NCBI GenBank assembly: GCA_026225115.1
Contig: JAMFSE010000064.1
Location: 1-52,582, forward strand
From: Rhodovastum atsumiense
GTDB taxonomy: Bacteria; Pseudomonadota; Alphaproteobacteria; Acetobacterales; Acetobacteraceae
Direction of reading: 5' to 3'
Length of the DNA stretch: 52,582 nucleotides
The notes beneath the pieces were generated by a model that saw only the letters and a list, made by a program, of their open reading frames with translations, searched no databases and was not told the DNA's origin. Positions 980 through 52,430 of this stretch are shown one piece after another (the stretch's first letter is position 1; each line of letters starts with the position of its first letter). Both the position numbers and the translations under genes were made by a program.

Positions 980-1183
980 AGCAGTTCTTTTTTGAAAAAA
1001 AGGCTGGCCGCCCGCGGACCAAAAAACTTTTGTTAATCTGGGGCGTGGGTTGTGGCCCAGACGTCGCCTTTCGGTGGGTTAAACCCACTCCATGGGACAT
1101 GGTGCGCGGCGCTCCCGTAGCCGGTGTCCTAGATCAATAAAAGTCTTTTTGCTTCTTTTTCTTCAGAAAAAGAAGTGCTTGCC
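980..1183. repeat. Family A repeat, inverted pair (A1)
   Basis: Two A/T-rich arms (980-1041 and about 1134-1183) face each other around a core of about 90 bases. The left arm contains TTCTTTTTTGAAAAAAA and a GC-rich insert GGCTGGCCGCCCGC; the right arm contains GCTTCTTTTTCTTCAG and AAAAAGAAGTGCTT. Each arm is itself a hairpin. The core carries a degenerate family C palindrome (GGTGGGTTAAACCCAC, near 1074). The right end lies 7 bases from the stop codon of the UPF0262 gene. Confidence 0.85.
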
Positions 1184-1189
1184 TCGCTG

Positions 1190-1666
1190 TTAAAGCGGCT
1201 GGTGGAGGGCGCAAACCAGCGTGAAGAGGCGGCGCGCGGTTGGGAAGTCGATGTTGATTTTGCCTGCCAGGCGTTCCTGCATCAACGCGGCGCCTTCGTT
1301 GTGGAGGCCGCGGCGACCCATGTCGATGGCCTGGATTTTTGCTTCGCGGCCCTCGGCGATGGCGCCTGCGTAGCTGTCGAGCAGCATCTGATAATCTTTC
1401 ATCAGCATTTTGAAGGGGCCGAGTGCGAGCACGACGGCCGTTAGCGGCGCGTCGGTTGCGTCGCGGATGTCGAAGACCAGCCGGCCTTCCTGGATGGAGA
1501 GATGCAGGATGCTTTGCACATTCGGATGGGCGATGGCGGCGAATTCGTTTTCCGATTCGAGATCGGTCACGGCCTGAGTGCGATCGGCTTCCTGCAAACG
1601 CGAAAGGCGGTGCAGGGCAGCGCCTTCGAGAATGATGCGGGTGAGACGGCCGGTGGGTTCATCCAT
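1190..1666 (-). CDS. UPF0262 family protein
   Basis: A 158-residue protein of a conserved alphaproteobacterial family of unknown function. The diagnostic C-terminal part is present: IEAIDMGRRGLHNEG-like sequence (here IQAIDMGRRGLHNEGAAL), then an ERLAGKINIDFPTARRLF block and FTLVCALH at the end. I chose the ATG at 1666 (MDEPTGRLTRI); it overlaps the end of the upstream DUF983 gene by 8 bases, which indicates translational coupling. A longer open frame upstream is only the shadow of DUF983. The stop codon is followed directly by an A-family repeat, which may form its 3' end. No catalytic motif is recognisable. Confidence 0.88.
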   Translation of the reverse strand: MDEPTGRLTRIILEGAALHRLSRLQEADRTQAVTDLESENEFAAIAHPNVQSILHLSIQEGRLVFDIRDATDAPLTAVVLALGPFKMLMKDYQMLLDSYAGAIAEGREAKIQAIDMGRRGLHNEGAALMQERLAGKINIDFPTARRLFTLVCALHQPL

Positions 1667-2096
1667 TCGGCTTCTCCCGGTTGTTGTCGAGCTTGAGGAG
1701 AATGCCGATGACAGCACCCTTCGCCATGCGCAGCACGGCCATGCAGAGCAGCACCAGCAAGGCGAGCAGGATGGCGATTGCGATGGGGCCCGGGTGCCAA
1801 TGGAACTTGAACATCGCGACGATGAACAGCCCGACGAAATGCGCGACGACGACCATGGCGATGTAGGGCGGCGTATCGTCTGCCGGCATCTGGCCGAGCG
1901 GTGCGGCGCAGGCGGTGCAAACTTCGTGCACTGCAAGGTAGCCGTTGAAGATGGGCGCGTGGCCGCAATGCGGACATTTATTGACAATGCCGCGACCGAT
2001 GGTTGTTCCCCAGCCCGGCATGATCCAATCGGAATCGACGGCGGCCGGTGGCCAATGCGCATCGTCCTTGTTGGATTGGGGCAATATCGTGGCCAA
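1659..2096 (-). CDS. DUF983 family membrane protein with zinc ribbon
   Basis: A 145-residue protein with an N-terminal zinc-ribbon-like pair of CxxC motifs (CPHC at 41-44, CTAC at 60-63) and two hydrophobic segments at about 78-102 and 106-126, expected to span the inner membrane. This layout is that of the DUF983 family, common in alphaproteobacteria and sometimes close to cytochrome oxidase assembly genes. No such neighbours exist here; it is coupled to the UPF0262 gene by an 8-base overlap, suggesting a two-gene operon. Function is unknown; the ATG at 2096 is the only start in a sensible place. Confidence 0.85.
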   Translation of the reverse strand: MATILPQSNKDDAHWPPAAVDSDWIMPGWGTTIGRGIVNKCPHCGHAPIFNGYLAVHEVCTACAAPLGQMPADDTPPYIAMVVVAHFVGLFIVAMFKFHWHPGPIAIAILLALLVLLCMAVLRMAKGAVIGILLKLDNNREKPNG

Positions 2097-2739
2097 CCGC
2101 GCAAACTCCTATCGTGATCTTTCTATTAGCCACCGCAATGCGGCGAAGTTCAAGCCAAGGCGGTGCGCAGTCATGCAATGGACATAGCGCTGTTCGGCGA
2201 GCGCCACCATTAAAATCGATTGGCTTTCCGAGATCGCAGCAGCTTGCGAGCGTGCGACAGACGCGGCCGTCTGGATGTTGGGCGCGCTTTGATAAGTGGT
2301 TCGCGCATGATCCGGCGTGGCTTGATTTGCGCTGAGGGGAAGAAGTCTGAACAAATATTTACAATTCATTCCGATTCATCTTCGCCGGTTTTTGTTGCGC
2401 GGATCGAACCGAAATTGGTGTCCAGATTTTTTGGTGCAGGCGTAGAATCGATTCATGGCGCGTCACGTGCGCGCAAAAATTCGCGTGAAAAATGATTCGC
2501 GCTATGAAAAATCCGTTATCAAAACGGCTGTGAAATCGCTTCAGCGACTCTGCGTATTGTGATTTTTTTGCAAATTATAAAAAAAATCACCAATTTGTCG
2601 TCAATCGTGACGCTTTTTGTTGACAGCACTGTATGAGAAGCGGAATAGCGATTCTTGCGTGCGATGCGCGATTCGCGCCGCAACCGACTCATTATTGTAT
2701 CGGTCAAGAGGCCCCGCACGCGATTTTGGAAGGACGGTC
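2097..2739. other. Gene-poor, partly AT-rich intergenic stretch
   Basis: About 640 bases without a convincing gene. Base composition drops to strongly AT-rich between about 2480 and 2620, unlike the surroundings. Short open frames on both strands show no recognisable protein pattern. I see small palindromes (GAATCGATTC near 2448, CGTCACGTGCGCGC near 2462), an 11-bp inverted repeat at 2559-2590 and a perfect TTGACA at 2620-2625 without a clear -10 partner. It could hold the divergent control regions of DUF983 (leftward) and of the downstream rightward genes. Confidence 0.5.
2559..2590. repeat. AT-rich inverted repeat, 11-bp stems
   Basis: GTGATTTTTTT and its exact complement AAAAAAATCAC are separated by about 10 A/T-rich bases. 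It lies about 380 bases upstream of the histone-like gene and 30 bases before a TTGACA. It could be an operator, a bent-DNA site or a transcript hairpin; the sequence does not decide. Confidence 0.6.
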
Positions 2740-2922
2740 ATGGACCGTGACGGCAACCTACCCGGTTTTTTTCAGCTGCAAGGCGATGCCGGGTCAAGGC
2801 TTGGACAGAATAAAGCCGTATTAAAACCACGGGGTCGTTTTGAATTGACCCTCGTGCCGGCGGAAGATTTTCAAGCCTGGGTACCTGGCACCTGTGCAGT
2901 CAGCATTGCTGCAAAGGGATAA
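2740..2922 (+). CDS. Small hypothetical protein, 60 residues
   Basis: A possible short gene starting with ATG at 2740 (MDRDGNLPGFFQLQGD), preceded by a GGAAGGA ribosome-binding site at 6 bases. It ends at 2922 with TCAVSIAAKG. No family is recognised. The stretch RFELTLVPAEDFQAWVPG resembles part of a small soluble domain. It lies just upstream of, and in the same direction as, the lysine-rich protein and could be co-transcribed with it. The support is the ribosome-binding site and the even codon use only. Confidence 0.4.
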   Translation: MDRDGNLPGFFQLQGDAGSRLGQNKAVLKPRGRFELTLVPAEDFQAWVPGTCAVSIAAKG

Positions 2923-2973
2923 ACCGTACGCCGCAACCGGCCTTCTCTAACACCAGCCGAAGGAGCATTCCTC

Positions 2974-3492
2974 GTGACCATTGAAGATACCACCGTAACA
3001 CGTGCCCAACCGTTAGCCGCTAAAGCACCGGCGAAGAAAGTCGCCGCGAAGAAGCCGGCTGCGAAAAAACTTGCTGCCAAAAAACCCGTTGCCAAAAAAG
3101 CTGCGGTGAAGAAGCCGGCTGTTAAGAAAGCCGCCGTGAAGAAAGCTGCCGTCAAGAAACCGGTTGCCAAGAAGGCTGTCGCCAAGAAGCCGGCTGCCAA
3201 GAAGGCCGTCGCCAAGAAGCCGGTTGCCAAGAAGGCTGTCGCCAAGAAGCCGGTGGCAAAGAAGGCCGTCGCCAAGAAGCCGGTAGCTAAAAAGGCTGTT
3301 GCCAAGAAGCCGGTTGCCAAGAAGGCCGTCGCCAAGAAGCCGGTTGCCAAGAAAGCTGTCGCCAAGAAGCCGGTTGCTAAGAAGACTGTAGCCGCCAAGA
3401 AGCCGGCGGTTAAAAAGGCAGCCGTAAAAAAACCACGTAAGTCGGCCACGCCGCCCGTCGCTACCGCGCCTGCTCCCGAGACCATCAATTAA
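2974..3492 (+). CDS. Lysine/alanine-rich histone H1-like protein
   Basis: A 172-residue, very basic, low-complexity protein. After a short start (TIEDTTVTRAQPLAAKAP) it consists almost wholly of AAKKP/VAKKAV units, with about a dozen repeats of a ten-residue double unit, then a tail ending PAPETIN. Such proteins resemble eukaryotic histone H1 tails and bacterial AlgP/Hc1-like nucleoid proteins; DNA binding by charge is the expected role, inferred from composition. The start is GTG at 2974 with a strong GAAGGAG site. The DNA itself repeats with a 30-bp period, so copy number may vary between strains. A strong terminator follows at 3544. Confidence 0.75.
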   Translation: MTIEDTTVTRAQPLAAKAPAKKVAAKKPAAKKLAAKKPVAKKAAVKKPAVKKAAVKKAAVKKPVAKKAVAKKPAAKKAVAKKPVAKKAVAKKPVAKKAVAKKPVAKKAVAKKPVAKKAVAKKPVAKKAVAKKPVAKKTVAAKKPAVKKAAVKKPRKSATPPVATAPAPETIN

Positions 3493-3543
3493 TCTGGATC
3501 AGCGATGACGGACTGACCGTTCCTGCTAAAGGAGCGGACCCCA

Positions 3544-3577
3544 AAAGTGCAGGCATTAAAACGCCTGCACTTTTTTT
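3544..3577 (+). terminator. Rho-independent terminator
   Basis: Stem AAAGTGCAGGC, loop ATTAAAAC, stem GCCTGCACTTT followed by a T run. It ends the histone-like transcript. The A-rich left flank may also let it serve the converging nudC transcript. Confidence 0.92.
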
Positions 3578-3582
3578 GTGTT

Positions 3583-4500
3583 TTATTCGACGGAGTCCAG
3601 CCAGTCGTCGATGAGGCGCCGCGCGATGCTTTGCGGCGGCGGTACGCGGAAGCCCGTTGCCTCGCAATTGCGCACTTCCTCCGGGCTGAACCAGCGGGCG
3701 TCGCGCATCTCGGCCTGTTCGAGGACGATGTCGTCGTTCAGGCCCTCGCCGTAGAAGCCCAGCATCAGGGATGCAGGAAATGGCCAAGGCTGGCTGGAAT
3801 GGTAATGGACGGCGCCGACTTTGACGCCGACTTCCTCAAAGACCTCGCGGCGCACCGCGTCTTCCAGGCTCTCGCCAGGTTCAACAAAACCGGCGAGCGT
3901 TGAGAAGAAATTGCTTTCAACAGGAAAATTATGCGACTGGCCGAGCAGCAGTCTGTTGTTGCGGGTGACCAGCATGATGACGGCAGGGTCGGTGCGCGGG
4001 AAATGCTCGGTGTTGCATTGGCTGCATTGCATGACGTAGCCGCCGCGGATGGGCCTGTTGGCGTGGCCGCAGGCGCTGCAGAATTTGGTCTGGTGGCGCC
4101 AGTGCAGCATGGCGCGCGCGGTGGCGAGCAGGGTGGCGTCGTCGGGCCCGAGCATGCCGGCGACGGCGCGCAGATCGGTGAAGGCGCCGTCGCCGATATG
4201 TACTGCCTCGTGCGGGGCTTCGAGATGGGAGAGGTTGGCTGCGAAATAGGGCGTGCCGTTCTGCAGGCCGAGAAACACCCAGGGGGCGTCGTCATTCAAG
4301 GGTTTTGCGGTGTAGAGGGCGCGGGGCTCGGCGCTGCCCACATCCGTGATCAGCATTTTGCCCTGCCAGAACAATACGAAGCGGCTGGCGGGATCGGCGA
4401 ATGCCTCGCCGATCCATGCGTCGTCGGTGCGGCGATGGGCGGCGCGATCCAGCGTGCCGCCGGTGTAGAAATTCGGCCGGCTTGGGGTGATTGTGGGCAT
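3583..4500 (-). CDS. nudC: NADH pyrophosphatase / NAD-RNA decapping hydrolase
   Basis: A 305-residue Nudix hydrolase that splits NADH to NMNH and AMP and, by family knowledge, removes NAD caps from RNA. All NudC hallmarks are visible: a zinc ribbon with Cys141, Cys144, Cys159 and Cys162; the Nudix box beginning GFVEPGESLED at 204 and ending EEVGV at 226; and the NudC-specific SQPWPFPAS at 236-244. I chose the ATG at 4500 (MPTITPSRPNFY). A longer frame upstream would run antisense through the SRP RNA gene and is rejected. The gene is divergent from ffs, with tandem small palindromes between them. Confidence 0.95.
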   Translation of the reverse strand: MPTITPSRPNFYTGGTLDRAAHRRTDDAWIGEAFADPASRFVLFWQGKMLITDVGSAEPRALYTAKPLNDDAPWVFLGLQNGTPYFAANLSHLEAPHEAVHIGDGAFTDLRAVAGMLGPDDATLLATARAMLHWRHQTKFCSACGHANRPIRGGYVMQCSQCNTEHFPRTDPAVIMLVTRNNRLLLGQSHNFPVESNFFSTLAGFVEPGESLEDAVRREVFEEVGVKVGAVHYHSSQPWPFPASLMLGFYGEGLNDDIVLEQAEMRDARWFSPEEVRNCEATGFRVPPPQSIARRLIDDWLDSVE

Positions 4501-4541
4501 GGGTAAAAATTCGCACGGCGGGCGCCGCGGGGCAACCGCTG

Positions 4542-4602
4542 CCCACGGCGGGCCGCTGCCCACGGTGGGCCGTTCCCACGGTGGGCCGTTCCCACGGCGG
4601 CC
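4542..4602. repeat. Four tandem 16-17 bp units, each palindromic
   Basis: CCCACGG occurs at 4542, 4559, 4575 and 4591, giving periods of 17, 16 and 16. The middle units read CCCACGGTGGGCCGTT, and CCCACGGTGGG is a perfect palindrome about one base. The block lies between the nudC start and the ffs promoter. Confidence 0.85.
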
Positions 4603-4631
4603 TTGCGGAAAGGCGTGGAAGAGGGGATAAA
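4603..4631 (+). promoter_or_regulatory. Probable promoter of the SRP RNA gene
   Basis: TTGCGG at 4603-4608 and GATAAA at 4626-4631 are separated by 17 bases. The start of the SRP RNA falls at the expected distance downstream. It abuts the tandem palindromes on its upstream side. Confidence 0.6.
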
Positions 4632-4632
4632 A

Positions 4633-4737
4633 GGGCGGGAGGTCGGCGGCGGACATGTGCCTCGCCAACCCGGTCAGGGCCGGAAGGCAGCAGCCGCAAC
4701 GAGTTTCCGCATGGGTTGTTGTCCGGCCTCCCACCCG
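4633..4737 (+). ncRNA. ffs: Bacterial signal recognition particle (4.5S) RNA
   Basis: The universally conserved SRP core is present: GGTCAGGGCCGGAAGG at 4672-4687 followed by CAGCAGCC. The 5' end (GGGCGGGAGGTCGG) pairs with the 3' end (GTCCGGCCTCCCACCC), giving the expected single long hairpin of about 105 nucleotides. It acts with Ffh in co-translational membrane targeting. Placement just upstream of dnaX is usual in alphaproteobacteria. Ends are estimated from pairing. Confidence 0.93.
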
Positions 4738-4793
4738 CGATAGCGCAATGGCCGCTTGATGAGCGGCACGAACCGAAGGATTTTTTGCCCCGC

Positions 4794-6638
4794 ATGGCCG
4801 GTTTGTTTGAAGATGAACCGGCGGTGGCACCCTTCTCCGGCCCTTCGCTGTTTGGAGATGAACCGCAAGCGGAGCCTGCCGCCGCAGCATACCGGGTGCT
4901 GGCCCGCAAATACCGTCCGACGATTTTCAGCGACCCGAATGATCCCGAAAGCCTGGAAGGGCTGATCGGCCAGGATGGGCTGGTGCGGACGCTGCGCAAC
5001 GCCTTTGCAATGGGTCGGATTGCGCATGCCTTCATGCTCACCGGCGTGCGCGGGACCGGCAAAACCACTACCGCGCGGATCCTTGCGCGGGCACTGAATT
5101 GCACCGGGGCGGATGGCACCGGGGGGCCGACGCCGGATCCTTGCGGGGTCTGCGATAATTGCGTCGCCATTCTGGCGGACCGGCATCCGGATGTGGTGGA
5201 GATGGATGCGGCGTCGAATACCGGCGTCGATGACGTGCGGGAGATTATCGAAGCGACGCGGTTTCGGCCGCTCTCGGCGCGGGTGAAGGTTTTTATTATC
5301 GACGAAGTGCATATGCTTTCGCGCAACGCGTTCAACGCGCTGCTGAAGACGCTGGAAGAACCGCCGCCGCATGTGAAGTTTGTGTTCGCGACCACCGAAA
5401 TCCGGAAAGTGCCGGTGACCGTGCTGTCGCGTTGCCAGCGGTTCGATCTGCGGCGGGTTTCGGTGGCGGAGTTGTCGCTGCGGTTTTCGCGGATTGCGCT
5501 GCGCGAGGGCGTGAAGATATCGGAATCGGCGATCGGCTATATCGCGCGGGCGGCGGATGGGTCGGTGCGCGATGGCTTGTCGCTGCTGGACCAGGCGATT
5601 GCGCGCGGGGCGGAGGATGGCGACGAGATCAGCGCCGGCATGGTCGCCGAAATGCTGGGCCTGGCGGATCGCAAATATGTGCACCGGTTGATGAAGGCGC
5701 TGGTGACCGGCGATGCGCGCGAGGTGCTGGCGATTACCGAGATTGCGCATGCGCAGGGGACCGATCCCGGTGTGCTGCTGGGGGATGTGCTGGATTTTGC
5801 GCATTTCGTCACCCGGCTGAAGGTAAACCCGGCGCTGGCCGAGAGCCGCGCCGTGCCGGAAACGGAACTCGAAGAGGGGCTGGCTTTGGCGAACAGCCTC
5901 GGGATTCCGTGGCTTGGCCGGTTGTGGCAGATGCTGCTCAAAGGTGTTGCCGAAGTGGAGCATGCGCCGGACCGGCGGGCGGCCGCCGAGATGGTGCTGA
6001 TCCGGATCTGCCATGTGGCGGATATGCCGCCGCCGGGCGAGCTGCTTAAGAAACTTGAAGCCAGGATCAACGAAAATCCAAATCTTTCGAACGGCTACGG
6101 GCCAGGTGATGGTGGTAATGGCGGCGGCATGCTGGCGCAGGCGAGCAACGGTGCGCCGGCGTTCAGCGCCGCACCGCAAGCCGAACCGGCGCCCGCGCCG
6201 CGCGCGCTGAACTTTACCGATGTTGTCGCTTTGGCCGGCGCCAGACATGAGGTGATGCTGTACGCGCATCTTCGGCAATCGGTGCATCTGGTGCGCTTTG
6301 CGCCGCCGGTCATCGAACTGCGGCTGGAGCCGGAAGCGCCGCGGGATCTGGCGCCGCGGCTCGCAGCACTGCTCGAAGCGGAAACCAATCGCCGCTGGAC
6401 GATTGCGCTGAGCCAGGCCGAAGGCGCGCCGACCATTGATGCAATGGAGCGCGAAGCCGAAGCCGGTATCCGGCAATCCGCCAATGACCACCCGCTGGTG
6501 CGCGCAATACTGGAGATTTTTCCGGGCGCGCGTATCGAAGCGCTGCACAGCGCGCCTGAGCCAGTTTCGGAAGAGCCGCCGCCCGATTGGGCGGAGTTCA
6601 CGCCGCCCGACGAAGCCTATTTTGAAGAAGAGGAGTAA
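4794..6638 (+). CDS. dnaX: DNA polymerase III subunit gamma/tau
   Basis: The clamp-loader ATPase of the replisome, 614 residues from the ATG at 4794 (MAGLFEDEPAV). Walker A is GVRGTGKTT at about 84-92, the four zinc-binding cysteines are at 103, 117, 120 and 123, the Walker B/DExx region is IIDEVHMLS, and the sensor SRCQRFDLRR follows. The C-terminal third, rich in Gly/Ala/Glu, is the tau part binding polymerase and helicase. The open frame continues upstream through the SRP RNA, so the start cannot lie far upstream; the chosen ATG gives a normal alphaproteobacterial N-terminus and has GAAGGA about 15 bases before it. The gene is followed three bases later by ybaB. Confidence 0.95.
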   Translation: MAGLFEDEPAVAPFSGPSLFGDEPQAEPAAAAYRVLARKYRPTIFSDPNDPESLEGLIGQDGLVRTLRNAFAMGRIAHAFMLTGVRGTGKTTTARILARALNCTGADGTGGPTPDPCGVCDNCVAILADRHPDVVEMDAASNTGVDDVREIIEATRFRPLSARVKVFIIDEVHMLSRNAFNALLKTLEEPPPHVKFVFATTEIRKVPVTVLSRCQRFDLRRVSVAELSLRFSRIALREGVKISESAIGYIARAADGSVRDGLSLLDQAIARGAEDGDEISAGMVAEMLGLADRKYVHRLMKALVTGDAREVLAITEIAHAQGTDPGVLLGDVLDFAHFVTRLKVNPALAESRAVPETELEEGLALANSLGIPWLGRLWQMLLKGVAEVEHAPDRRAAAEMVLIRICHVADMPPPGELLKKLEARINENPNLSNGYGPGDGGNGGGMLAQASNGAPAFSAAPQAEPAPAPRALNFTDVVALAGARHEVMLYAHLRQSVHLVRFAPPVIELRLEPEAPRDLAPRLAALLEAETNRRWTIALSQAEGAPTIDAMEREAEAGIRQSANDHPLVRAILEIFPGARIEALHSAPEPVSEEPPPDWAEFTPPDEAYFEEEE

Positions 6639-6641
6639 GCC

Positions 6642-6965
6642 ATGAAAAATCTCACCGGGCTGATGAAACAGGCCTCGCAAATGCAGCAGAAAATGCAGGA
6701 AATGCAGGCCAAGCTCGACGCCACCATCATCGAAGGCGTCTCCGGCGCCGGGCTTGTGAAACTGTCCGTCAATGGCCAGGGCGAGCTGAAGGGGATTAAA
6801 ATCGATCCCAAACTCGCCGATCCAAGCGATATCGAAATGCTGGAAGATTTGATCATCGCCGCGCATGCGGATGCCAAAGGGAAGCTGGATAATCTTAAAG
6901 AAACCGAAATGAAAAACGCCACCGGCGGGCTGCAGTTGCCGCCTGGTATGAAGCTACCGTTTTAG
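6642..6965 (+). CDS. YbaB/EbfC family nucleoid-associated protein
   Basis: A 107-residue DNA-binding protein with the typical start [20 protein letters not shown] (coiled coil), the central strand [20 protein letters not shown] and a C-terminal [13 protein letters not shown] tail. By family it binds DNA as a dimer and is nearly always coded between dnaX and recR, as here. A GGAGTAAGCC ribosome site overlaps the dnaX stop. Downstream, an inverted pair of A repeats separates it from recR. Confidence 0.95.
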
Positions 6966-6984
6966 GAAGTTGATGGCAGGAATT

Positions 6985-7128
6985 GAGGAAAGCAGTTCTT
7001 TTTTGAAAAAAAGAACCAAAAAATTTTTGTTCATCTGGGTCATGGGCTTTGGCGGAAACAACGCCCATGCCCCAGAAACAAAAAATTTTTTTGCTTCTTT
7101 TTTTATAAAAAAAGAAGTGCTTCCTTCC
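6985..7128. repeat. Family A repeat, complete inverted pair (A2)
   Basis: The clearest complete copy. The left arm has AGCAGTTCTTTTTTGAAAA and then AAAAATTTTTGTTCATCTGG; the right arm is its inverse with GCTTCTTTTTTTATAAAA. The core between them (about 7040-7077) is CATGGGC...GCCCATG-like and also partly palindromic. The element fills nearly the whole ybaB-recR gap and ends five bases before the recR ATG. Confidence 0.88.
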
Positions 7129-7132
7129 TAAC

Positions 7133-7723
7133 ATGGGTGGGCCGGAGTTAGAGCATCTTATTGGGTTGTTTGCGAAGCTGCCGGGGTTGGGGCCGCGGAG
7201 TGCGCGGCGGATTGTTTTGAAGCTGCTGCGCGAGCGGGAGACGCGGTTGTTGCCGTTGGCTGATGCTATTCGGGCAGCGGCGAATACGGTGCGGACCTGT
7301 TCGGTTTGCGGGAATTTGGATAGCCGGGATCCGTGTACGATTTGTGCAGCACCTTCGCGCGAGGCGATTATTTGCGTGGTTGAGACGGTTGCGGATTTAT
7401 GGGCGTTCGAGCGGGCGCAGATTTATCGCGGGCGGTATCATGTGCTGGGCGGGTCGCTATCAGCACTGTCGGGGCGGGGGCCGGAGGATATTGCCATTGC
7501 GTCGTTGCTGGCGCGGATTGCGGATGAGGCGCCGGCGGAGATTATTCTGGCCCTGTCCGCGACGGTGGATGGGGCGGCGACCGGGCATTATCTGGCTGAG
7601 AAGTTGAAGGGGTTTGATATTCCCATATCGCGTCTGGCGCAGGGCGTGCCGATGGGCGGTAGTCTAGAGGTTTTGGATGAGGGCACGCTTGCGACGGCGA
7701 TGCGGGCTCGGCGGATCGCTTAG
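7133..7723 (+). CDS. recR: Recombination protein RecR
   Basis: A 196-residue DNA-repair protein acting with RecO and RecF in loading RecA at gaps. The helix-hairpin-helix LPGLGPRSARR is at 16-26, the zinc finger uses Cys56, Cys59, Cys68 and Cys71, and the Toprim domain contains VVETVADLWAFE followed by YHVLGG. The C-terminus ISRLAQGVPMGGSLEVLD is typical. The A2 repeat sits in front of the ATG and leaves little room for a good ribosome-binding site (TTCCTTCCTAAC precedes it), which could lower translation. Confidence 0.95.
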   Translation: MGGPELEHLIGLFAKLPGLGPRSARRIVLKLLRERETRLLPLADAIRAAANTVRTCSVCGNLDSRDPCTICAAPSREAIICVVETVADLWAFERAQIYRGRYHVLGGSLSALSGRGPEDIAIASLLARIADEAPAEIILALSATVDGAATGHYLAEKLKGFDIPISRLAQGVPMGGSLEVLDEGTLATAMRARRIA

Positions 7724-7724
7724 G

Positions 7725-8999
7725 TTAGACGCCTAGTTTGTCGCGGGTGCGGTAGTACCAGGATCCTAGAACTGTGAGCGGTACCCGTAAGGTTTTGCCG
7801 CCGGGGAAGGGGTAGTAGGGCAGGTTTGCCAGGATGTCGAAGCGGGTGGGCGCGCCGGCGATGGCTTCGGCGACCAGGCGGCCGAGGAGATGGGTCGTGG
7901 TGACGCCGTGGCCGCTGCAGCCATGTGAGTAGTAGACGTTCGGTGACAGGCGGCCGATTTGCGGGAAGCGGGTGAGGGTGAGTGCGAAGTTGCCGCTCCA
8001 GGCATAGTCGATCCGGGCGTCGCGGAGTTCCGGGAAGGTTTTCAGCATGTTCGGCAGGATTTTTGCGCGGATGCTGTCCGGGTCCTGGCCGCCGTAGACG
8101 ATGCCGCCGCCGTAGATGATGCGGTGGTCGGCCGTGCGGCGGTAATAGTCGAGCACGTAGTTGGCATCTTCGACGCAGACGTTGGAGGGCAGCAGGCGCG
8201 TGGCTAGGTTGCCGAGCGGTTCGGTTGCCAGGACCTGGGTGGAGACCGGCATTATTTTATGGCCGATTTCCGGCAACAGCTCGCCGATATAGGCGTTGCA
8301 GCAAACCAGGACATGTTTGGCGCGGACTTCGCCGGCCGCGGTTTTGACGATGGGTGCGTCGCCGGGATTTACCGCGGTGACGCGGGAGTCCTCGAAGATG
8401 CGGCCACCCAGTTGTTCGACGGCGGCGGCTTCGCCTTGCACCAGGTTGAGCGGGTGCAAATGGCCGCCTTTGTGGTCGAGCAGGCCGCCGGCGTAGCGCT
8501 GGGTGGTGACATGTGGGGCGAGGCCGGGTTTGTCGAGCAGGTCGAAGGCGGTCTGGCCGTATTGCGCCCAGATTCTTTTGTCATGCGCGAGGCCGCGCAT
8601 TTGTTTGGCGTTCATGGCCACGAACAGGCCGCCGTCTACCAGGCCGCAACTGATGTTATATTTTTTGACGCGGTCGCGGATGATGTCGCCGCCTTCCATG
8701 GCCATTGCGCCGATGGCGCGGCCGGGGGCCTGGCCGTAGCGTTTGGAGATGACGTCGAGGTCGCGGCTGTAGCCGTTGACAATCTGGCCGCCGTTGCGGC
8801 CCGAGGCGCCCCAGCCGACGCAAGCGGCTTCCAGCACGATGACCGAGAGGCCGCGTTCCAGCAGCTCGATTGCTGCCGACATGCCGGTGAAGCCGGCGCC
8901 GACGATGCAGACATCCGCGGTTTGCGTGCCTTGCAGCGGCGGCCGGGCGTCTTTGCGGTTGGCGGTGGCGGCGTAATAGGACGGGGCGTGTTCGATCAT
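7725..8999 (-). CDS. FAD-dependent amine/amino-acid oxidoreductase (DAO family, PuuB-like)
   Basis: A 424-residue flavoprotein. The FAD-binding dinucleotide fold is CIVGAGFTGMSAAIELLERG at 31-50, followed by GWGASGRNGGQI, a signature of gamma-glutamylputrescine oxidase and related DAO-family enzymes. The C-terminal half has the typical WSGNFALTLTRFPQIGRL and the FAD-contacting YSHGCSGHGV. The ATG at 8999 is chosen because the family N-terminus starts shortly before PSYYAATA; it lies 7 bases after the stop of the small membrane protein upstream. Oxidation of gamma-glutamylputrescine is plausible, but the substrate is inferred. It converges on recR with two bases between stops. Confidence 0.88.
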   Translation of the reverse strand: MIEHAPSYYAATANRKDARPPLQGTQTADVCIVGAGFTGMSAAIELLERGLSVIVLEAACVGWGASGRNGGQIVNGYSRDLDVISKRYGQAPGRAIGAMAMEGGDIIRDRVKKYNISCGLVDGGLFVAMNAKQMRGLAHDKRIWAQYGQTAFDLLDKPGLAPHVTTQRYAGGLLDHKGGHLHPLNLVQGEAAAVEQLGGRIFEDSRVTAVNPGDAPIVKTAAGEVRAKHVLVCCNAYIGELLPEIGHKIMPVSTQVLATEPLGNLATRLLPSNVCVEDANYVLDYYRRTADHRIIYGGGIVYGGQDPDSIRAKILPNMLKTFPELRDARIDYAWSGNFALTLTRFPQIGRLSPNVYYSHGCSGHGVTTTHLLGRLVAEAIAGAPTRFDILANLPYYPFPGGKTLRVPLTVLGSWYYRTRDKLGV

Positions 9000-9006
9000 G
9001 ATGGGT

Positions 9007-9411
9007 TCAAACCTTGTCGCGCGCGCCCAGCATGGCGACGCCGAAGATGGCACCCAGGATGGTCATGGTGATGACCATGGCGCGGACGTTATAAGCGGAG
9101 TTGCGGGCCTGCTGCACGACTTCCACCCACATGTTGTCGCGCGCGGCGGCGATGCGCGCGGGGAGCGGGCCGGTGCCGTTGGTGACGATGGCGGCGGTAT
9201 CTTCATCCACCGCGTTCGGCAGGTTGGCGATGGCGGCGGCTTCTGCGGGGGTGTTCTGGGCGGCCAGGACGGCATCCAGCGCGGCCGATTGGTGCATGGC
9301 GTCAACGACCGGGGCGGGGATCGAGTAACCCGCGAAGGTGCCGATCAATCCGGGAAACAGAAAGGCCGTCAGCAAGAAGCCGATGCGGCCGAAAGAGACA
9401 CCCCTGAGCAT
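9007..9411 (-). CDS. Hypothetical membrane protein with two end-placed TM helices
   Basis: A 134-residue protein with a hydrophobic N-terminus (FLLTAFLFPGLIGTFAGY) and a hydrophobic C-terminus (AMVITMTILGAIFGVAMLGA) enclosing a soluble, Ala-rich middle of about 80 residues. No family is recognised. It probably spans the inner membrane twice with the middle in the periplasm. It is immediately upstream of the FAD oxidoreductase on the same strand, so the two likely form an operon and may work together. Confidence 0.65.
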   Translation of the reverse strand: MLRGVSFGRIGFLLTAFLFPGLIGTFAGYSIPAPVVDAMHQSAALDAVLAAQNTPAEAAAIANLPNAVDEDTAAIVTNGTGPLPARIAAARDNMWVEVVQQARNSAYNVRAMVITMTILGAIFGVAMLGARDKV

Positions 9412-9493
9412 TGTTCCACCTGTGACCTATACGGCAGCAGATGCAAGCGGAGCGCGTGGCAGTCAATGGGACGTTATTTGGCCCATGCCCATG

Positions 9494-9560
9494 CCCCAGA
9501 GTAAAAAAGTCTTTTTGGGGCTTTGCGGGCGGCCAGCCTTCTTCAGAAAAAGAACTGCTT
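9494..9560. repeat. Family A repeat, single long arm (A3)
   Basis: One arm of the long subtype: CCCAGAGTAAAAAAGTC, then the GC-rich insert GCGGGCGGCCAGCC, then TTCTTCAGAAAAAGAACTGC. The insert is the complement of that in A1. Its right end abuts the stop codon of the glycosyltransferase gene (9562-9564). Confidence 0.85.
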
Positions 9561-9561
9561 T

Positions 9562-10311
9562 CTATTCTCTGATATCCTGCCAAGCCTCGGTGAACGGCTT
9601 TTTGCGGAAGGTGGCCCAGAAGAAGTTCATGGAGTAGCGCAGGCCGATGGTGAAGACGCCCTCGCCGACCAGGCGGCGCCCGGAGGATTGGGCGGGCAGG
9701 CGGAAGGTGAATTTGACGCCGCCGACTTTGCTGAGGCGGCGCGCCATGTCGGTATCTTCGCCGTAGAAGCTGAAGCGGAGCGAGGGTTGGCCGAGTTTGA
9801 GCATGGCGTCGCGTTTGACGATGAAATTGCCGCCCTGGAGCATTGAGCCGACGTTGAGCACGAAACGGTTGAAGAGATAGGCGGAGAAGGCGAGGCGGTA
9901 ATAGCCGGCGACGACCAGGTTCACGCGGTGCGGCACACCATAATATATATAGGGGCCGGAGAGGCCGACCAGTTTTTCGTTGCGGGCAAACTGGCGCAGG
10001 ACTTCGGTCAGCCAGCCGGGGGGGATGATGGTATCGGCGTCGATATTGGCGATGAGGGCACCCTGGCTGGCCTCAAAGCCGCACCAGCGAGCTTGTACCA
10101 GGCCTTTGCGGGGCTCATCGACGACCTGCACGCCTTCGATGGCTTCGGCGACTTCGCGGGTACGGTCGGTGCTGGCGTTGTTGACGACGATGATTTCGGC
10201 ATCTTGGCCCATGATTTGTCCGGCGCGGTGGATTTCGTCGCGGATCGCGGTCAGCGAGCGCGTGAGGAGCGCTTCTTCATTATAGGCAGGCACGACGAAA
10301 CTGATTTTCAT
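9562..10311 (-). CDS. Family 2 glycosyltransferase
   Basis: A 249-residue GT-A fold enzyme. It begins MKISFVVPAYNEEALL, has the nucleotide-binding VVNNASTDRT at 42-51, the metal-binding IDADT at 90-94, and an acceptor-side GEDTDMARRLSKVG near 200, replacing the common ED(T/V)E. Cytoplasmic or membrane-associated transfer of a sugar to a lipid or glycan is expected; the sugar is unknown. The ATG at 10311 follows GGAGCGCTGG. The longer open frame upstream lacks the family pattern. It stands alone, with an A repeat at its 3' end. Confidence 0.9.
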   Translation of the reverse strand: MKISFVVPAYNEEALLTRSLTAIRDEIHRAGQIMGQDAEIIVVNNASTDRTREVAEAIEGVQVVDEPRKGLVQARWCGFEASQGALIANIDADTIIPPGWLTEVLRQFARNEKLVGLSGPYIYYGVPHRVNLVVAGYYRLAFSAYLFNRFVLNVGSMLQGGNFIVKRDAMLKLGQPSLRFSFYGEDTDMARRLSKVGGVKFTFRLPAQSSGRRLVGEGVFTIGLRYSMNFFWATFRKKPFTEAWQDIRE

Positions 10312-10433
10312 TTTTCCAGCGCTCCATCCGACTCGGCGCTCCGAGCCCTCTAAAGGGCGGTATGAACAATTGTCTGCGGCACAAAGCGAATGACCATTTG
10401 ATGACAGGCAGAGCGGGGTTTCTGGGCTGCGGG

Positions 10434-10462
10434 TTGACAGCACCCCCTGTGGCAAAGCATAC
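10434..10462 (+). promoter_or_regulatory. Probable sigma-70 type promoter of rpmJ
   Basis: A perfect TTGACA at 10434-10439 is followed after 17 bases by GCATAC (or CATACC with 18). The -10 is weak. It lies 40 bases before the rpmJ ATG. Confidence 0.42.
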
Positions 10463-10500
10463 CGCGCCACCGAATAACATTTTGACCTTGTGAGCCTAAT

Positions 10501-10626
10501 ATGAAGATCCGTAACTCATTGAAATCAGCCAAGACCCGCGACAAGAATTGCCGCGTCGTGCGCCGTCATGGCCGGGTCTATGTGATCAACAAGAAAAACC
10601 CGCGGATGAAAGCTCGCCAGGGCTAA
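10501..10626 (+). CDS. rpmJ: 50S ribosomal protein L36, zinc-less form
   Basis: A 41-residue ribosomal protein reading [20 protein letters not shown] and ending [13 protein letters not shown]. It is the proteobacterial form with a single cysteine instead of the zinc-binding Cys/His set. It is encoded alone with its own terminator, as usual in alphaproteobacteria. Confidence 0.96.
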
Positions 10627-10663
10627 GCTCCGCGGCTGACTCCGCGATAGCGAGAGCGTTATT

Positions 10664-10690
10664 AAAACCCGGCCCTGCGCCGGGTTTTTT
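10664..10690 (+). terminator. Rho-independent terminator of rpmJ
   Basis: Stem AAACCCGGC, short loop, stem GCCGGGTTT ending in a run of six T. Confidence 0.92.
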
Positions 10691-10706
10691 GTTGGTACAG
10701 AGGGCA

Positions 10707-10747
10707 AGATGGATTGCCACGGCTGCTTCGCAGCCTCGCAATGACGG
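10707..10747. repeat. Family B repeat (B1), variant loop
   Basis: Ends AGATGGATTGCC and CTCGCAATGACGG with an inner palindrome GGCTGCTTCGCAGCC in place of the usual short loop. It lies 8 bases from the stop of the UbiH-family gene. Confidence 0.85.
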
Positions 10748-10754
10748 CTTGGCG

Positions 10755-11969
10755 CTATTCTCCCATTGCTGTGAGCATGAAGCGGCGTTTTAGGCGGGGC
10801 ATGCGGTTGACGGTGGTCAGCCCTAGGTCGCGCATCAGGCGGAGCGCCGGATTGTTGGTGGAGAACAGGCGGTCCAGCACATCGGTTGCGGCCAGCATGG
10901 CGAGGTTGGCGGGGCGGCGCTGAGCCTGGTATTTTGCGAGCAGCTTTGGGGCGCCGGGATCGTCTGAGCCGGCGATTAGGGCGCCGATGGCGAGTGCGTC
11001 GCGCAGGCCGAGGTTCAGGCCCTGGCCGGCGATCGGGTGGATGCCGTGGGCGGAATCGCCGACCAGCGCCAGGCGCGGGGCGGTGTAGCGGGCGGCGTGC
11101 ATAGCCGATAGCGGGTAGGTCCAGCGCTTGCCGATCAGGCGGATGGCGCCGAGATGCGGGCCGAGGCGCTTGGCGACTTCCGGGGTGAAGCGGGCATCGT
11201 CCATCAAGGCAAGGCGCGCGACCAGGTCGCGCTGGTCGGTGAAGACGATTGCCGACATGTGGGGGTGGGCGTCCGAGCCGCTCATGGGCAGCTGGGCGAA
11301 GGGGCCGCCGGGGAGGAAATGCTCGAGTGCGACGCCGCCGTGCGGTTTTTCATGGGCGATGGCGCAGACCACGGCCGATTGCCGGTAGGGGATGCGGGTG
11401 ACGGGAATCCCGGCCTGAGCCCGGATGCGGCTGTTGCGGCCGGAGGCGTCGATCAGCAGCCGGGCTTTGAAGATCCGGCCGGCGACGCTGACCGTGGCTG
11501 CGTCCCCGGTGAATGAGATTCTGGCTTCGGCCGGGGCCAGTAAGGTGATGTTGGGGGCGGATTGAATCTGCCGGTTGAGGGCGATGCGCAGGGCGCGGGC
11601 CTCGATGATCCAGCCGAAGGGCGCGTCGCCGACGGCGCGGTGGTCGAATTGCAGTTGCAAGGGCGATGCTGGGTAGCCTGGCTTACCGTCCGTCACCTTG
11701 ATGTCGAGGATCGGGCAGGGCTGGTAGGGCAGGTTGTCCCAAAGGCCGGCTTCGTCGAGCAGGCGTTTTGAGCCGGCGGCGATGGCGTAGGCGCGGCCGT
11801 CGAAATCCGGGTGCTCCATTGGGGGAAGTGCGGCCTGGTCGACCAGTAGGATCTTTTTCCCCGACGCGGCGAGTTGGCAGGCAAGCGATCCGCCGACCGG
11901 TCCGGCGCCGATGATGGCGATATCTACGGCGTCGGCAGCGGGTTCTTTAAGGGTTTCAGCGGTATTCAT
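10755..11969 (-). CDS. UbiH/UbiF/COQ6-family FAD monooxygenase
   Basis: A 404-residue flavin hydroxylase, expected to hydroxylate the ring of a ubiquinone precursor at the membrane. The N-terminal FAD motif is IIGAGPVGGSLACQL at 19-33, a DGRAYAIAAGSKRLL segment typical of the family follows near residue 57, and the second FAD motif LVGDSAHGIHPIAGQGLNLG is about 85 residues from the C-terminus. The last segment, TTVNRMPRLKRRFMLTAMG, is the usual UbiH tail. Which ring position it attacks cannot be told from sequence alone. Divergent from the ammonium transporter across 270 bases. Confidence 0.92.
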   Translation of the reverse strand: MNTAETLKEPAADAVDIAIIGAGPVGGSLACQLAASGKKILLVDQAALPPMEHPDFDGRAYAIAAGSKRLLDEAGLWDNLPYQPCPILDIKVTDGKPGYPASPLQLQFDHRAVGDAPFGWIIEARALRIALNRQIQSAPNITLLAPAEARISFTGDAATVSVAGRIFKARLLIDASGRNSRIRAQAGIPVTRIPYRQSAVVCAIAHEKPHGGVALEHFLPGGPFAQLPMSGSDAHPHMSAIVFTDQRDLVARLALMDDARFTPEVAKRLGPHLGAIRLIGKRWTYPLSAMHAARYTAPRLALVGDSAHGIHPIAGQGLNLGLRDALAIGALIAGSDDPGAPKLLAKYQAQRRPANLAMLAATDVLDRLFSTNNPALRLMRDLGLTTVNRMPRLKRRFMLTAMGE

Positions 11970-12136
11970 GCCGCTCTTGTGCCAGAGTCAGCTGGTTGCG
12001 CAACCAGGACCGGACGACTGCCACATTCTAACAATGCTTAAATGCTGTTCAATTAATCGCCTGTGAAATGTGCAGTGTCGTTTCGATGAACAGTTCGTAA
12101 CCCGCGCGACTCGCATATAACGATTGCGTGAAAATT

Positions 12137-12152
12137 TGGCATGGAAGCTGCA
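12137..12152 (+). promoter_or_regulatory. Putative sigma-54 (RpoN) promoter of amtB
   Basis: TGGCATGGAAGCTGCA matches the -24/-12 consensus TGGCACG-N4-TTGCW at all key positions: GG at 12138-12139 and GC at 12150-12151, exactly 12 apart. Transcription would start near 12163, giving a leader of about 77 bases. Nitrogen control of amt genes by NtrC and sigma-54 is well established. I could not make out clear NtrC sites upstream. Confidence 0.65.
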
Positions 12153-12239
12153 AGAGGACTGCCGGACGCAAAGCGTGGCCGTGAATCCGCGCTTGTGTTT
12201 TGTGCAACTTACACGGCTGGGACAGTGGAGACGATTTAA

Positions 12240-13607: not shown

Positions 13608-13613
13608 GGGCGG

Positions 13614-13728
13614 AATTCTACTCCGCTGGCCATCTGAGGCGTGTTTCTCCGCTTCCGGTGCTCACGTACTGAAGTACGCTGCGCTCCGGTTCTCGAAACC
13701 CGCCACAGCTGACTCAGCGGAGCGAATT
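13614..13728. repeat. Nested inverted-repeat element after amtB
   Basis: Outer arms AATTCTACTCCGCTG (13614-13628) and CAGCGGAGCGAATT (13715-13728) are inverted with one small gap. They enclose the palindrome CGTACTGAAGTACG (13665-13678) within CCGGTGCTCA...GCGCTCCGG flanks. The whole can fold into one branched hairpin and lies between the amtB stop and its terminator. Only one copy is in this window. Confidence 0.7.
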
Positions 13729-13744
13729 TGATAGGACTAAAGAG

Positions 13745-13774
13745 ACCCAGGGTGGAAACCACCCTGGGTTTTTT
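13745..13774 (+). terminator. Rho-independent terminator of amtB
   Basis: Stem ACCCAGGGTGG, loop AAA, stem CCACCCTGGGT, then six T. A very strong hairpin. Confidence 0.94.
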
Positions 13775-13836
13775 GTTGGATTGGATTCTGCCGCGATCTG
13801 CACCATGTATGGGGTGGTTCTGGAGCGGAGTTTCCG

Positions 13837-14613: not shown

Positions 14614-14637
14614 TCGCGCCAGGATAGGGAGGACGCG

Positions 14638-14964
14638 ATGCCTATCATACTGATTATCCTGAGCTTTCTCGGCGGGGCGCTGATCTGCAATTCGATACCG
14701 CATCTGTCGGCCGGGACCCGGGGCGAGGCGTTTCCCTCACCCTTTGCAAAACCGCCGGGCGTTGGGTTGTCGCCGCCGGTGGTGAATTTTCTGTGGGGCT
14801 TTATCAATCTGTTCATTGGGCTGGCGATCCTGCCGCATATTGTTCTGTTGTCGCCGGTGATGCCGCTGTTCAATAGCGCTTGGCTGGCGTTTGCGATTGG
14901 ATTTTTGATCGCCGGGTTGTTTGTGGCCTGGCATTTTGGCCGGGTACGCGGAAACAGGATTTGA
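14638..14964 (+). CDS. Small membrane protein, three hydrophobic segments
   Basis: A 108-residue protein with hydrophobic stretches at 1-18 (MPIILIILSFLGGALICN), about 49-75 (NFLWGFINLFIGLAILPHIV) and 80-102. No family is recognised. It begins 24 bases after the previous gene with GGGAGGACGCG before its ATG, so it is likely translated from the same message. An inner-membrane partner of the upstream tail-anchored protein is possible but unproven. Confidence 0.65.
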   Translation: MPIILIILSFLGGALICNSIPHLSAGTRGEAFPSPFAKPPGVGLSPPVVNFLWGFINLFIGLAILPHIVLLSPVMPLFNSAWLAFAIGFLIAGLFVAWHFGRVRGNRI

Positions 14965-15043
14965 GCGAGGGCCAACGGGCCTGATCGCCTGTGGATGACA
15001 TTTTGTTTGGGAATCAGCCGGTTGTGAGGTATATCGCCTGATT

Positions 15044-17437: not shown

Positions 17438-17480
17438 GCTGGGTGGCTGAGTCTGATTCCCTTGAGCGTTTAAAAAGAAA

Positions 17481-17512
17481 AATGGATTGCCGCGCTTCGC
17501 TCGCAATGACGG
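17481..17512. repeat. Family B repeat (B2)
   Basis: AATGGATTGCCGCG...TCGCAATGACGG, the standard short-loop form, 23 bases before an A arm (A4). Confidence 0.85.
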
Positions 17513-17534
17513 CGGTGGGCGGGCATGCCTCATG

Positions 17535-17588
17535 GCCCAGATTAATAAAAGTTTTTTGCGCCGCTTTTTTTCAAAAAAGCGGCTGCTT
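17535..17588. repeat. Family A repeat, single arm (A4)
   Basis: CCCAGATTAATAAAAG, then GCGCCGCTTTTTTTC and AAAAAAGCGGCTGCTT. The hairpin stem has GCCGC in place of GCTTC, with the matching change on the other side (GCGGC), so pairing is kept. The outer end faces the MFS gene start. Confidence 0.85.
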
Positions 17589-26322: not shown

Positions 26323-26396
26323 GAGGGCAAGGGCTCCGTGGGTATTACGTCGGTGTTACGGGACGGATTAGTCTTTGTCGGCGCGAGTTGCAAAGA

Positions 26397-26428
26397 AGAT
26401 GGATTGCCGCGCTTCGCTCGCAATGACG
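26397..26428. repeat. Family B repeat (B5)
   Basis: AGATGGATTGCCGCG...CTCGCAATGACG, the standard form, 45 bases before an A arm (A5). Confidence 0.85.
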
Positions 26429-26473
26429 ACTGTTGGGCGGGCAGGGGCTGTGACGGTGCCAACGCCCAACGCC

Positions 26474-26525
26474 CATATTAATAAAAGTTTTTTGCTTCTT
26501 TTTTTCAAAAAAGAAGTTCTTGCTT
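26474..26525. repeat. Family A repeat, single arm (A5)
   Basis: CCCATATTAATAAAAG, then GCTTCTTTTTTTC and AAAAAAGAAGTTCTTGC. The outer end faces the TerC-like gene. Confidence 0.85.
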
Positions 26526-30637: not shown

Positions 30638-30865
30638 AAGCAATTCTTTTTGTGAACAAAAAGAAGCGGGCCGCCGGTGCGGCAAAACAACTTTTTTAAT
30701 CTGGGGCGGGGGCGTTGGTGGCATCGCGTCTCTGACATTAAGAAAGAGGGTGGGGTAGCGGAGCTACCCCCACCCTACGAGCTTGGGCGTTGGTGGCGAC
30801 ACAGCCCATGGCCCGGAATAACAAAAGTTTTTTGCGCCGCTTTTTTCAAAAAAGCGGCTGCTTTC
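30638..30865. repeat. Family A repeat, inverted pair with C repeat in core (A6)
   Basis: Left arm 30638-30707 (GAAGCAATTCTTTTTG, AACAAAAAGAAGCGGG, GC-rich insert, CTTTTTTAATCTGGGG); right arm 30803-30865 (CCCGGAATAACAAAAG, GCGCCGCTTTTTTC, AAAAAAGCGGCTGC). A complete C palindrome lies in the core. The right end directly abuts the SDR stop codon, the left end begins five bases after the lipoprotein stop. Confidence 0.85.
30748..30780. repeat. Family C repeat (C2) inside A6
   Basis: GGGTGGGGTAGCG then GAGCTACCCCCACCC and TACGA, an almost perfect palindrome. Nested within an A pair. Confidence 0.85.
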
Positions 30866-39043: not shown

Positions 39044-39069
39044 AGGCGTGGATGGCCCAAATTCCCCAG

Positions 39070-39121
39070 GCCCGGAGTAATAAAAGTTTTTTGGTTCTTT
39101 TTTTCAAAAAAGAACTTTCCT
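39070..39121. repeat. Family A repeat, single arm (A7)
   Basis: CCCGGAGTAATAAAAG, then GGTTCTTTTTTTC and AAAAAAGAACTTTCC. It ends exactly at the transaldolase stop codon (39123-39125). Confidence 0.85.
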
Positions 39122-39122
39122 T

Positions 39123-51429: not shown

Positions 51430-52295
51430 GCGTGATTCTCTTCGCCGATCTCGGCGCGGGTCTCGTGCAAGGTCTCAGCAATTGGGGCGTCGGGGTCGTC
51501 TTCGTCGCCTTCGCCGAGATAGGCGGAGATGACCGCGGGGTCGTTGCGGATCTCCAACGGCGTGCCGTCGGCGATTTTTTTGCCGTGGTCTAGGACGATG
51601 ATGTGGTCGGAGATTTTCATGACCACGCCCATGTCGTGCTCGATCAGCAGGAGCGAGCAGCCTTCGGCGCGGATTTTCAGGAGCAGGTCGTTCAGCGCCG
51701 CACTTTCGCGCGGGTTGAGGCCGGCGGCGGGCTCGTCGAGGCAGAGCAGGACCGGGTTGGTGCACATGGCGCGGGCGATTTCCAGCCGGCGCTGGGCGCC
51801 GTAGGGCAGCGAGCCGGCGGGCTCATCGGCGCGGGCGAGGAGGTCGGTGGCGACGAGCCAGTGCTTGGCGCGCTCGATGGCGGCTTTCTCGGCGGCGCGG
51901 TAGCGGCCGAGGCCGAGGATGGCGAGCACGCCGAAGCCGGTGGCGGCTTGCAGTTCATTGTGCTGGGCGACCAGCAGGTTTTCCAGCACGGTCATGCCGC
52001 TGAACATGCGGATGTTCTGGAAGGTGCGGGCGACGCGGCCCTTACGGGCGATGGAATGGCCGGGGAGTTTGTTCAGCAGCATCGAGGCGCCGGGTTGGTG
52101 GTGGATGCTGACGCTGCCGGAGCTTGGTTTGTAGAAGCCGGTGATGCAGTTGAAGACGGTGGTTTTGCCGGCGCCGTTGGGGTCGATGACGGCGGTGATG
52201 TCGCCGGATTTGGCCTCGAAGCTGAGCGCGTTGACGGCGGTGAGGCCGCCGAAGCGCATGGTGAGCTGGCTGACGGTAAGGAGGGTTTGTTTCAT
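51426..52295 (-). CDS. livG: Branched-chain amino acid ABC transporter, ATPase LivG (altered Walker A)
   Basis: A 289-residue ATPase. The family has LIGPNGAGKTT; here residues 37-46 read IDPNGAGKTT, so the first Gly of Walker A is Asp. The rest is normal: RTFQNIRMFSGMTVLENLLV, LPYGAQRRLEIARAM (signature), LLCLDEPAAGLNPRESA. About 30 residues longer at the C-terminus than common LivG. The ATG at 52295 follows AAGGAGGGTTTGTTTC-like sequence read on its strand. B6 and A8 separate it from livM. Confidence 0.93.
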   Translation of the reverse strand: MKQTLLTVSQLTMRFGGLTAVNALSFEAKSGDITAVIDPNGAGKTTVFNCITGFYKPSSGSVSIHHQPGASMLLNKLPGHSIARKGRVARTFQNIRMFSGMTVLENLLVAQHNELQAATGFGVLAILGLGRYRAAEKAAIERAKHWLVATDLLARADEPAGSLPYGAQRRLEIARAMCTNPVLLCLDEPAAGLNPRESAALNDLLLKIRAEGCSLLLIEHDMGVVMKISDHIIVLDHGKKIADGTPLEIRNDPAVISAYLGEGDEDDPDAPIAETLHETRAEIGEENHA

Positions 52296-52315
52296 AGGCA
52301 AGCGGCTCGCCAGGA

Positions 52316-52348
52316 AGATGGATTGCCACGCTTCGCTCGCAATGACGG
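52316..52348. repeat. Family B repeat (B6)
   Basis: AAGATGGATTGCCACG...CTCGCAATGACGGG, in the livG-livM gap, next to an A arm. Confidence 0.85.
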
Positions 52349-52371
52349 GCGTAGGAGATGCCAACGCCCAA

Positions 52372-52430
52372 GGCCCAGAGTAACAAAGTTTTTTTGCTTC
52401 TTTTTGTTCACAAAAAGAAGTTTCTTCCTT
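52372..52430. repeat. Family A repeat, single arm (A8)
   Basis: GCCCAGAGTAACAAAG, GCTTCTTTTTGTTC and ACAAAAAGAAGTTTCTTCC. The outer end lies nine bases from the livM stop codon (52439-52441). Confidence 0.85.

Follow-up and report, generated by a model that had tools for sequence, protein, structure and literature searches.

The contig JAMFSE010000064.1 of Rhodovastum atsumiense (assembly GCA_026225115.1), analysed over its whole 52,582 nucleotides and here called the window, carries at eight places one or both arms of a twin-hairpin repeat, i.e. a unit of ~130 bases in which two unlike A/T-rich hairpins flank a G/C-rich stem, in a genome of ~62% GC. This element works like a bacterial interspersed mosaic element (BIME) and is a variant related to known repeat kinds. 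The reading that we prefer, to which we give a probability of slightly below one half (about 0.48), is that of a BIME-like mosaic palindrome that once spread and that the host now retains as an RNA module at gene ends.

The position relative to genes supports this reading. Among 110 loci of the own genome there are 77 full copies, of which 46 lie between tandem genes, 30 between convergent genes and none between divergent genes (one is unplaced), so that divergent gaps hold 0 of the 76 placed copies compared to 38 of 153 background gaps (p 6e-8). Stop-side ends fall within -20 to 40 nt of the stop codon in 101 of 106 cases, with a median of 7 nt, and in the first 70 loci (133 arms) 80 of the 88 stop-adjacent ends lie at most 15 nt away. 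The same distance applies to 42 of the 46 tandem copies, where uniform placement within those gaps would give 17.9, and to both ends of 22 of the 30 convergent copies, while the outer end of single arms faces a stop in 38 of 48 cases, 37 of those within 16 nt. In Escherichia coli, 446 of 4072 repetitive extragenic palindromic (REP) sequences are at most 15 nt from a stop, according to the available part of PMC12306157. In a second genus, represented by genome G101, none of 25 full copies is in a divergent gap (background 22 of 78, p 0.0014), and 24 of the 36 distances to a stop fall into the range 0-22 nt. In genome G207 the median distance to the stop is 17.5. A strict TAA target was considered and rejected, as the stops at abutting ends are TAA 35, TGA 27 and TAG 26 times, compared to 97, 109 and 60 overall, i.e. 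a mild bias.

The hairpin type also follows gene direction. Four arm types were distinguished, namely alpha (GTTC stem), beta (loop CTTCAG), gamma (loop GTTCAC) and delta (GCCGC stem), and the G/C-rich delta hairpin is present in 21 of the 30 convergent copies compared to 9 of the 46 tandem ones (p 1.4e-5). T-tracts broken by a C are commoner on the stop side, with 17 of 46 arms, than on the start side, with 6 of 46 (p 0.015; 0.035 when paired), and together with the delta marking of convergent copies they fit a role tied to transcription. Hairpins of the same type are never paired in the 37 resolved own copies (6.4 expected), and with coarser classes they are alike in 12 of 51 (19.9 expected) or in 6 of 76. 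An alpha hairpin is paired with a beta-loop hairpin in all 25 copies of G101 and in 26 of 27 in genome G259, whereas 15 of 17 copies in G207 are alike by loop class, which means that the rule of unlike pairs is not general.

That the hairpins are folded structures was tested by covariation in 136 distinct rows taken from the best 150 of 177 matches, in an alignment that was itself fitted to the structure. Standard pairs make up 1155 of 1166 hairpin cells, and 108 cells have changed on both sides compared to 25.2 in shuffles (0 of 500 shuffles as high), i.e. the hairpin helix covaries strongly and the paired stem changes proposed in an initial annotation of the window were confirmed. A perfect hairpin of at least 8 bp is found in 166 of 202 own arms, with the loop TTCA (UGAA on the strand leaving the gene) in 125 of the 166, closed by T-A (68), C-G (37) or G-C (20); in G207 the loops are TTCA in 18 and TACA in 12 of 35. 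The central stem is looser: across 60 full copies, 75.8% of its cells form a pair. For the whole structure, with a reference fold taken from one copy, 153 cells are double-changed versus 93 in shuffles, but the numbers of pairs with double changes and of pair types do not exceed shuffles. The outer flank has the consensus CTT(T/C)CCTT.

Constraint was estimated in the second genus from G101 and G259, between which 13 of 1020 sites have changed in the A/T hairpins, 19 of 438 in the tracts, 68 of 830 in the centre and 170 of 5098 in the flanks. The hairpins behind the first figure came from one of the two genomes, a choice that biases the count downwards, and therefore the union of those found in either genome was used. 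In this set 24 of 1116 sites have changed, compared to 2747 of 36866 third codon positions (p 1.4e-14) and to the centre (p 8e-10), so that bases of the A/T hairpins change three to four times slower than either. The centre itself changes at about the third-position rate, yet its fold is preserved better than under random changes (p 0.008, n 13 of 17), the folding energy shifting by a mean of 1.2 versus 4.2 kcal/mol for random changes (n 13). The slow change of the A/T hairpins was overlooked in the initial annotation, as were the gene-end position and the unlike hairpin pairs.

A full copy has the order: a flank ending in AAGC, an A/T hairpin, an A-tract, the long G/C-rich stem, a T-tract, the second A/T hairpin and a flank beginning with GCTT. 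The annotators had already recognised an ordered arm pattern at eight places and the inversion of two arms into a palindrome at three of them, and both observations hold (the two-arm sites are ~975-1185, 6985-7125 and 30638-30869). Their tally of ten arms becomes eleven, with single arms, which look like halves of the full unit, at the five other places. The arms and the palindromes near them are:

982..1049, minus strand: left arm of full element 1, with a G/C-rich insert within the hairpin
1121..1177, plus strand: right arm of full element 1, of beta type with the loop CTTCAG; the stop of the minus-strand gene 1190-1666 is 12 nt away
6993..7046, minus strand: left arm of full element 2, alpha type, 27 nt past the stop of gene 6642-6965
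7064..7119, plus strand: right arm of full element 2, followed after 13 bp by the recR ATG at 7133
9488..9557, plus strand: single arm 3, with a G/C-rich insert in the hairpin; the minus-strand gene 9562-10311 has its stop 4 nt away
17466..17511, plus strand: REP-like palindrome ending CAATGACG, directly before arm 4 (CGTC-type by eye)
17529..17584, plus strand: single arm 4, of delta type with the G/C-rich stem GCCGC/GCGGC, 91 nt past an ftsK-family gene
26383..26428, plus strand: REP-like palindrome preceding arm 5 (CGTC-type by eye)
26465..26518, plus strand: single arm 5, in the divergent gap that separates the genes for adenylosuccinate lyase (purB) and TerC
30643..30705, minus strand: left arm of full element 6, gamma loop GTTCAC with insert (assigned by hand, absent from the list of arm-model matches); its hairpin starts ~10 nt past the stop at 30633
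30748..30779, no strand given: GTAG-like palindrome within the centre of full element 6 (by eye)
30805..30860, plus strand: right arm of full element 6, delta type, 5 nt to the stop of the minus-strand gene 30866-31642, in a convergent gene pair
39064..39117, plus strand: single arm 7, flanked on both sides by minus-strand genes, with the stop at 39123 lying 5 nt from its outer end
52302..52347, plus strand: REP-like palindrome preceding arm 8 (CGTC-type by eye)
52367..52422, plus strand: single arm 8 (gamma loop), its right neighbour being a weak gene call at the window edge

The 12-mer AAAAGTTTTTTG occurs 43 + 37 times in the 3.67 Mb genome, compared to 1 + 6 times for its letters reversed, and an arm model built from 16 arms (R1) gave at least 150 matches (all 150 scored of 1976 candidates, worst E 1.5e-4), which together place the repeat beyond chance. 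At E 0.01, 20 of 36 congeners match R1, eight of them with at least 25 matches, and 16 have none; two genomes of other families gave one weak match each. Across the order, 105 of 299 genomes (the own included) from 26 of 64 genera match at E 0.001, all within one family, so that the earlier description of the element as specific to this lineage was too narrow; it may be a conserved gene-end punctuation in acetic acid bacteria and relatives. At recR loci, good matches come from Pseudoroseomonas aestuarii and several Acetobacteraceae, and a weak one from Acetobacter garciniae. A plasmid search returned five records, of which two from Pseudoroseomonas cervicalis fit, one in a convergent and one in a tandem gap, the other three being short A/T matches of 29-37 bases.

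The same sites were compared in relatives. The host is related to Acidocella, whose records give the best protein matches of recR (73-87% identity); NCBI places this genus in Acidocellaceae, order Acetobacterales. Of 19 Acidocella-like loci (L031-L049), 17 show no palindrome upstream of recR, where the spacer measures 0 to ~40 bp, and L040 and L045 have a different palindrome where the window has a full copy; the more distant L051, L053, L055, L058 and L080 also carry the element before recR. The purB/terC gap is 241 bp in the window versus 63-94 bp in 24 of 26 congeners, with a lone beta hairpin in L182 and other palindromes in L190. Gain in the lineage of the window is the simpler reading compared to loss. 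Candidate short target repeats were seen by eye at one site (recR) in three genomes (L051, L053 and L055). Over ~130 kb of synteny between G101 and G259 (88-98% identical by block), a comparison that covered all but one unaligned 1.8 kb stretch in the C4 region of G101, there was no clean filled/empty pair and no clean target duplication; two breakpoints touch an element, alongside other changes.

If the preferred reading is right, copies would have spread earlier as non-autonomous DNA, and would now be retained by the host as gene-end RNA modules. The first hairpin would form on the transcript soon after the stop codon, the central stem together with the T-tract would partially attenuate or terminate transcription in both directions, and protection or processing of the 3' end of the mRNA would fall to the hairpins; the step from structure to an effect on RNA is one that we infer. 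The order of A-tract, paired G/C-rich stem and T-tract reads (and folds) in both directions, and the central stem begins ~45 nt after the stop, as estimated from the alignment; for the E. coli terminator tR2, the accessible part of PMC4824070 gives almost maximal termination at distances of more than 30 bp from the stop. Should the element be host-kept, a dispersed repeat would have become standard gene-end equipment with its parts matched to gene direction, and each genome would offer many natural replicates for studying how repeats turn into regulatory punctuation, with possible relevance to expression design in acetic acid bacteria. A bolder version, which we consider fairly unlikely, is that of a family-wide host-kept punctuation mark in which unlike TTCA-loop hairpins are read as folded strands by a dedicated protein, their type matched to gene direction, and which is neither a RAYT-type REP (RAYT being the REP-associated tyrosine transposase) nor an ordinary terminator.

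Several observations weigh against the preferred reading. Arm 5, in a divergent gap, is an exception to the gene-end rule, as are 2 of 16 placed copies in G207, and in G101 10 of 36 stop distances exceed 40 nt and alpha and beta hairpins show no orientation bias (7 vs 7). Furthermore, in 19 of the 46 tandem cases the copy stops at most 30 bp short of the next start called, which leaves little room for a promoter, and the recR copy is another such case when the open reading frame start (13 bp) is used instead of the gene caller's later one (256 bp away). A terminator scan of positions 1-20000 of the window, which include four of the eight places, did not pick up any central stem, although its loop limit of 8 may miss such stems; within elements it hit arm 1 in the insert and arm 4 at the end, besides plain terminator-like sites at 3543 and 10664. 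T-run length was rejected as a sign of termination, its bias being weak (25 longer, 13 shorter, 8 equal, p 0.078). With the next starts so close and no central stem flagged, full or strong termination is doubtful, and it is for this reason that an attenuating or protecting module is favoured. In the union set, moreover, hairpins differ from flanks at just p 0.045 and contain 17 gap positions compared to 1 in the centre (p 0.001), i.e. hairpin runs vary in length despite their slow base change, and gene conversion among copies may be possible. The gap positions and the weak flank contrast slightly lower our confidence.

A purely selfish element, similar to a miniature inverted-repeat transposable element (MITE) or a REP, whose gene-end position would result from target choice or from the purging of harmful insertions, is fairly unlikely. 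It would explain the patchy copy number (20 of 36 congeners matching, eight with at least 25 copies of the arm), the element-free recR and purB/terC gaps in near relatives, the possible short repeats at recR in L051, L053 and L055 and the existence of solo hairpins, but it does not sit well with the slow hairpin base change at shared sites, with a hairpin type that follows gene direction, with the lack of a transposase match (PF01797) in the own genome, or with ~130 kb of synteny that holds no clean filled/empty pair. Plain intrinsic two-way terminators, alike through selection instead of being copies of one another, would account for the A-tract, stem and T-tract in both directions; since the centre and hairpins are shared beyond what a terminator needs, and the next starts are close by, this seems improbable. 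The absence of full copies between divergent genes in the own genome would suit a site acting at the level of DNA, where A/T-rich DNA downstream of genes recruits a nucleoid protein such as GapR, or gyrase, to deal with positive supercoils. GapR binds by preference to A/T-rich DNA and at the 3' ends of strongly expressed genes (available part of PMC8510090) and a GapR-family gene is present in the own genome, but the closing pairs of the TTCA loops, the covariation of the stems and the G/C-rich stems of delta arms point to a single strand that is folded more than to an A/T duplex, and we regard this explanation as quite improbable. The GapR-family gene lies ~1.2 kb from a copy of the element (G000 contig C88, ~15466-16957; L221, L338).

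As to its class, the dispersed, palindromic and extragenic character described earlier is supported, and so is the BIME-like reading as far as inverted pairs are concerned. The transposase partner that had been suggested did not materialise, with 0 matches to PF01797 (Y1/RAYT transposase) in the own draft genome (98.79% complete). PF01797 is present in 5 of 38 genomes of the genus, in 7 of 24 genomes from other genera with a high copy number, and in 2 of 13 genomes without an R1 match (the latter two groups being chosen by hand); a RAYT partner was rejected, since none was found in this draft genome and PF01797 presence does not track copy number. The outer flank consensus also has no GTAG/CGTC tag at the foot of the arm, and with neither RAYT nor tags found the element was not filed as a REP. 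With REP/BIME sequences and their RAYT in E. coli and Stenotrophomonas (PMC2817692, in the part available) it shares many extragenic palindromes, unlike inverted pairs and the preference for gene ends, but it differs in the missing PF01797 match and foot tag, the A/T-rich stems and the longer unit. Like MITEs it is short, dispersed and patchy with terminal inverted repeats, but it has no proven target duplication, its hairpins change slowly, and no parent transposase was found in PF01797, the sole family searched. Two arm-gene-arm inserts (L011 and L028, seen by eye) were considered as a candidate autonomous partner. Bidirectional intrinsic terminators have the A-tract, stem and T-tract at gene ends in common with it, but not the two extra A/T hairpins, the frequent position right before the next start, or a central stem that a simple scan left unflagged at four of the eight places.

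No description of a twin-hairpin element was found in the open-access literature as far as its texts were available (subscription journals fall mostly outside this scope), nor in the accessible portions of PMC3733652, PMC4686929, PMC5756330 and PMC12306157. A known RNA family was rejected as well, with only weak matches below the Rfam gathering threshold at elements in the window and 10 loci.

Palindromes of CGTC or GTAG appearance adjoin copies or sit in their centres in the window and in L005, L112, L132, L144, L015 and L028, often occupying the spot of the missing other half. They resemble, by eye, the GTAG/CGTC palindromes of PMC3733652, from which the untagged A/T element itself differs; according to the part of that source available, CGTC repeats are missing in Acetobacteraceae, contrary to the CGTC-like copies seen by eye in the window. 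Some A/T hairpins carry, in their 5' strand, a recurrent G/C-rich insert of the form GCGGGCGGCCAGCC or CCGCACCGGCGGCCC (982-1049, 9488-9557 and 30643-30705 in the window; L008, L015, L024 and L121), on the same side in every case read. L040, L042, L045 and L097 hold inside-out relatives, in which the A/T-tract stem encloses one or two hairpins, and solo A/T hairpins without tract or centre were seen in the purB/terC gap of L182 (G020) and in L022 near 1656. Elsewhere in the window, 4637-4735 is a bacterial small signal recognition particle RNA, and 3034-3434 contains a long run of 15-base lysine-rich coding repeats, resembling a histone H1-like protein.

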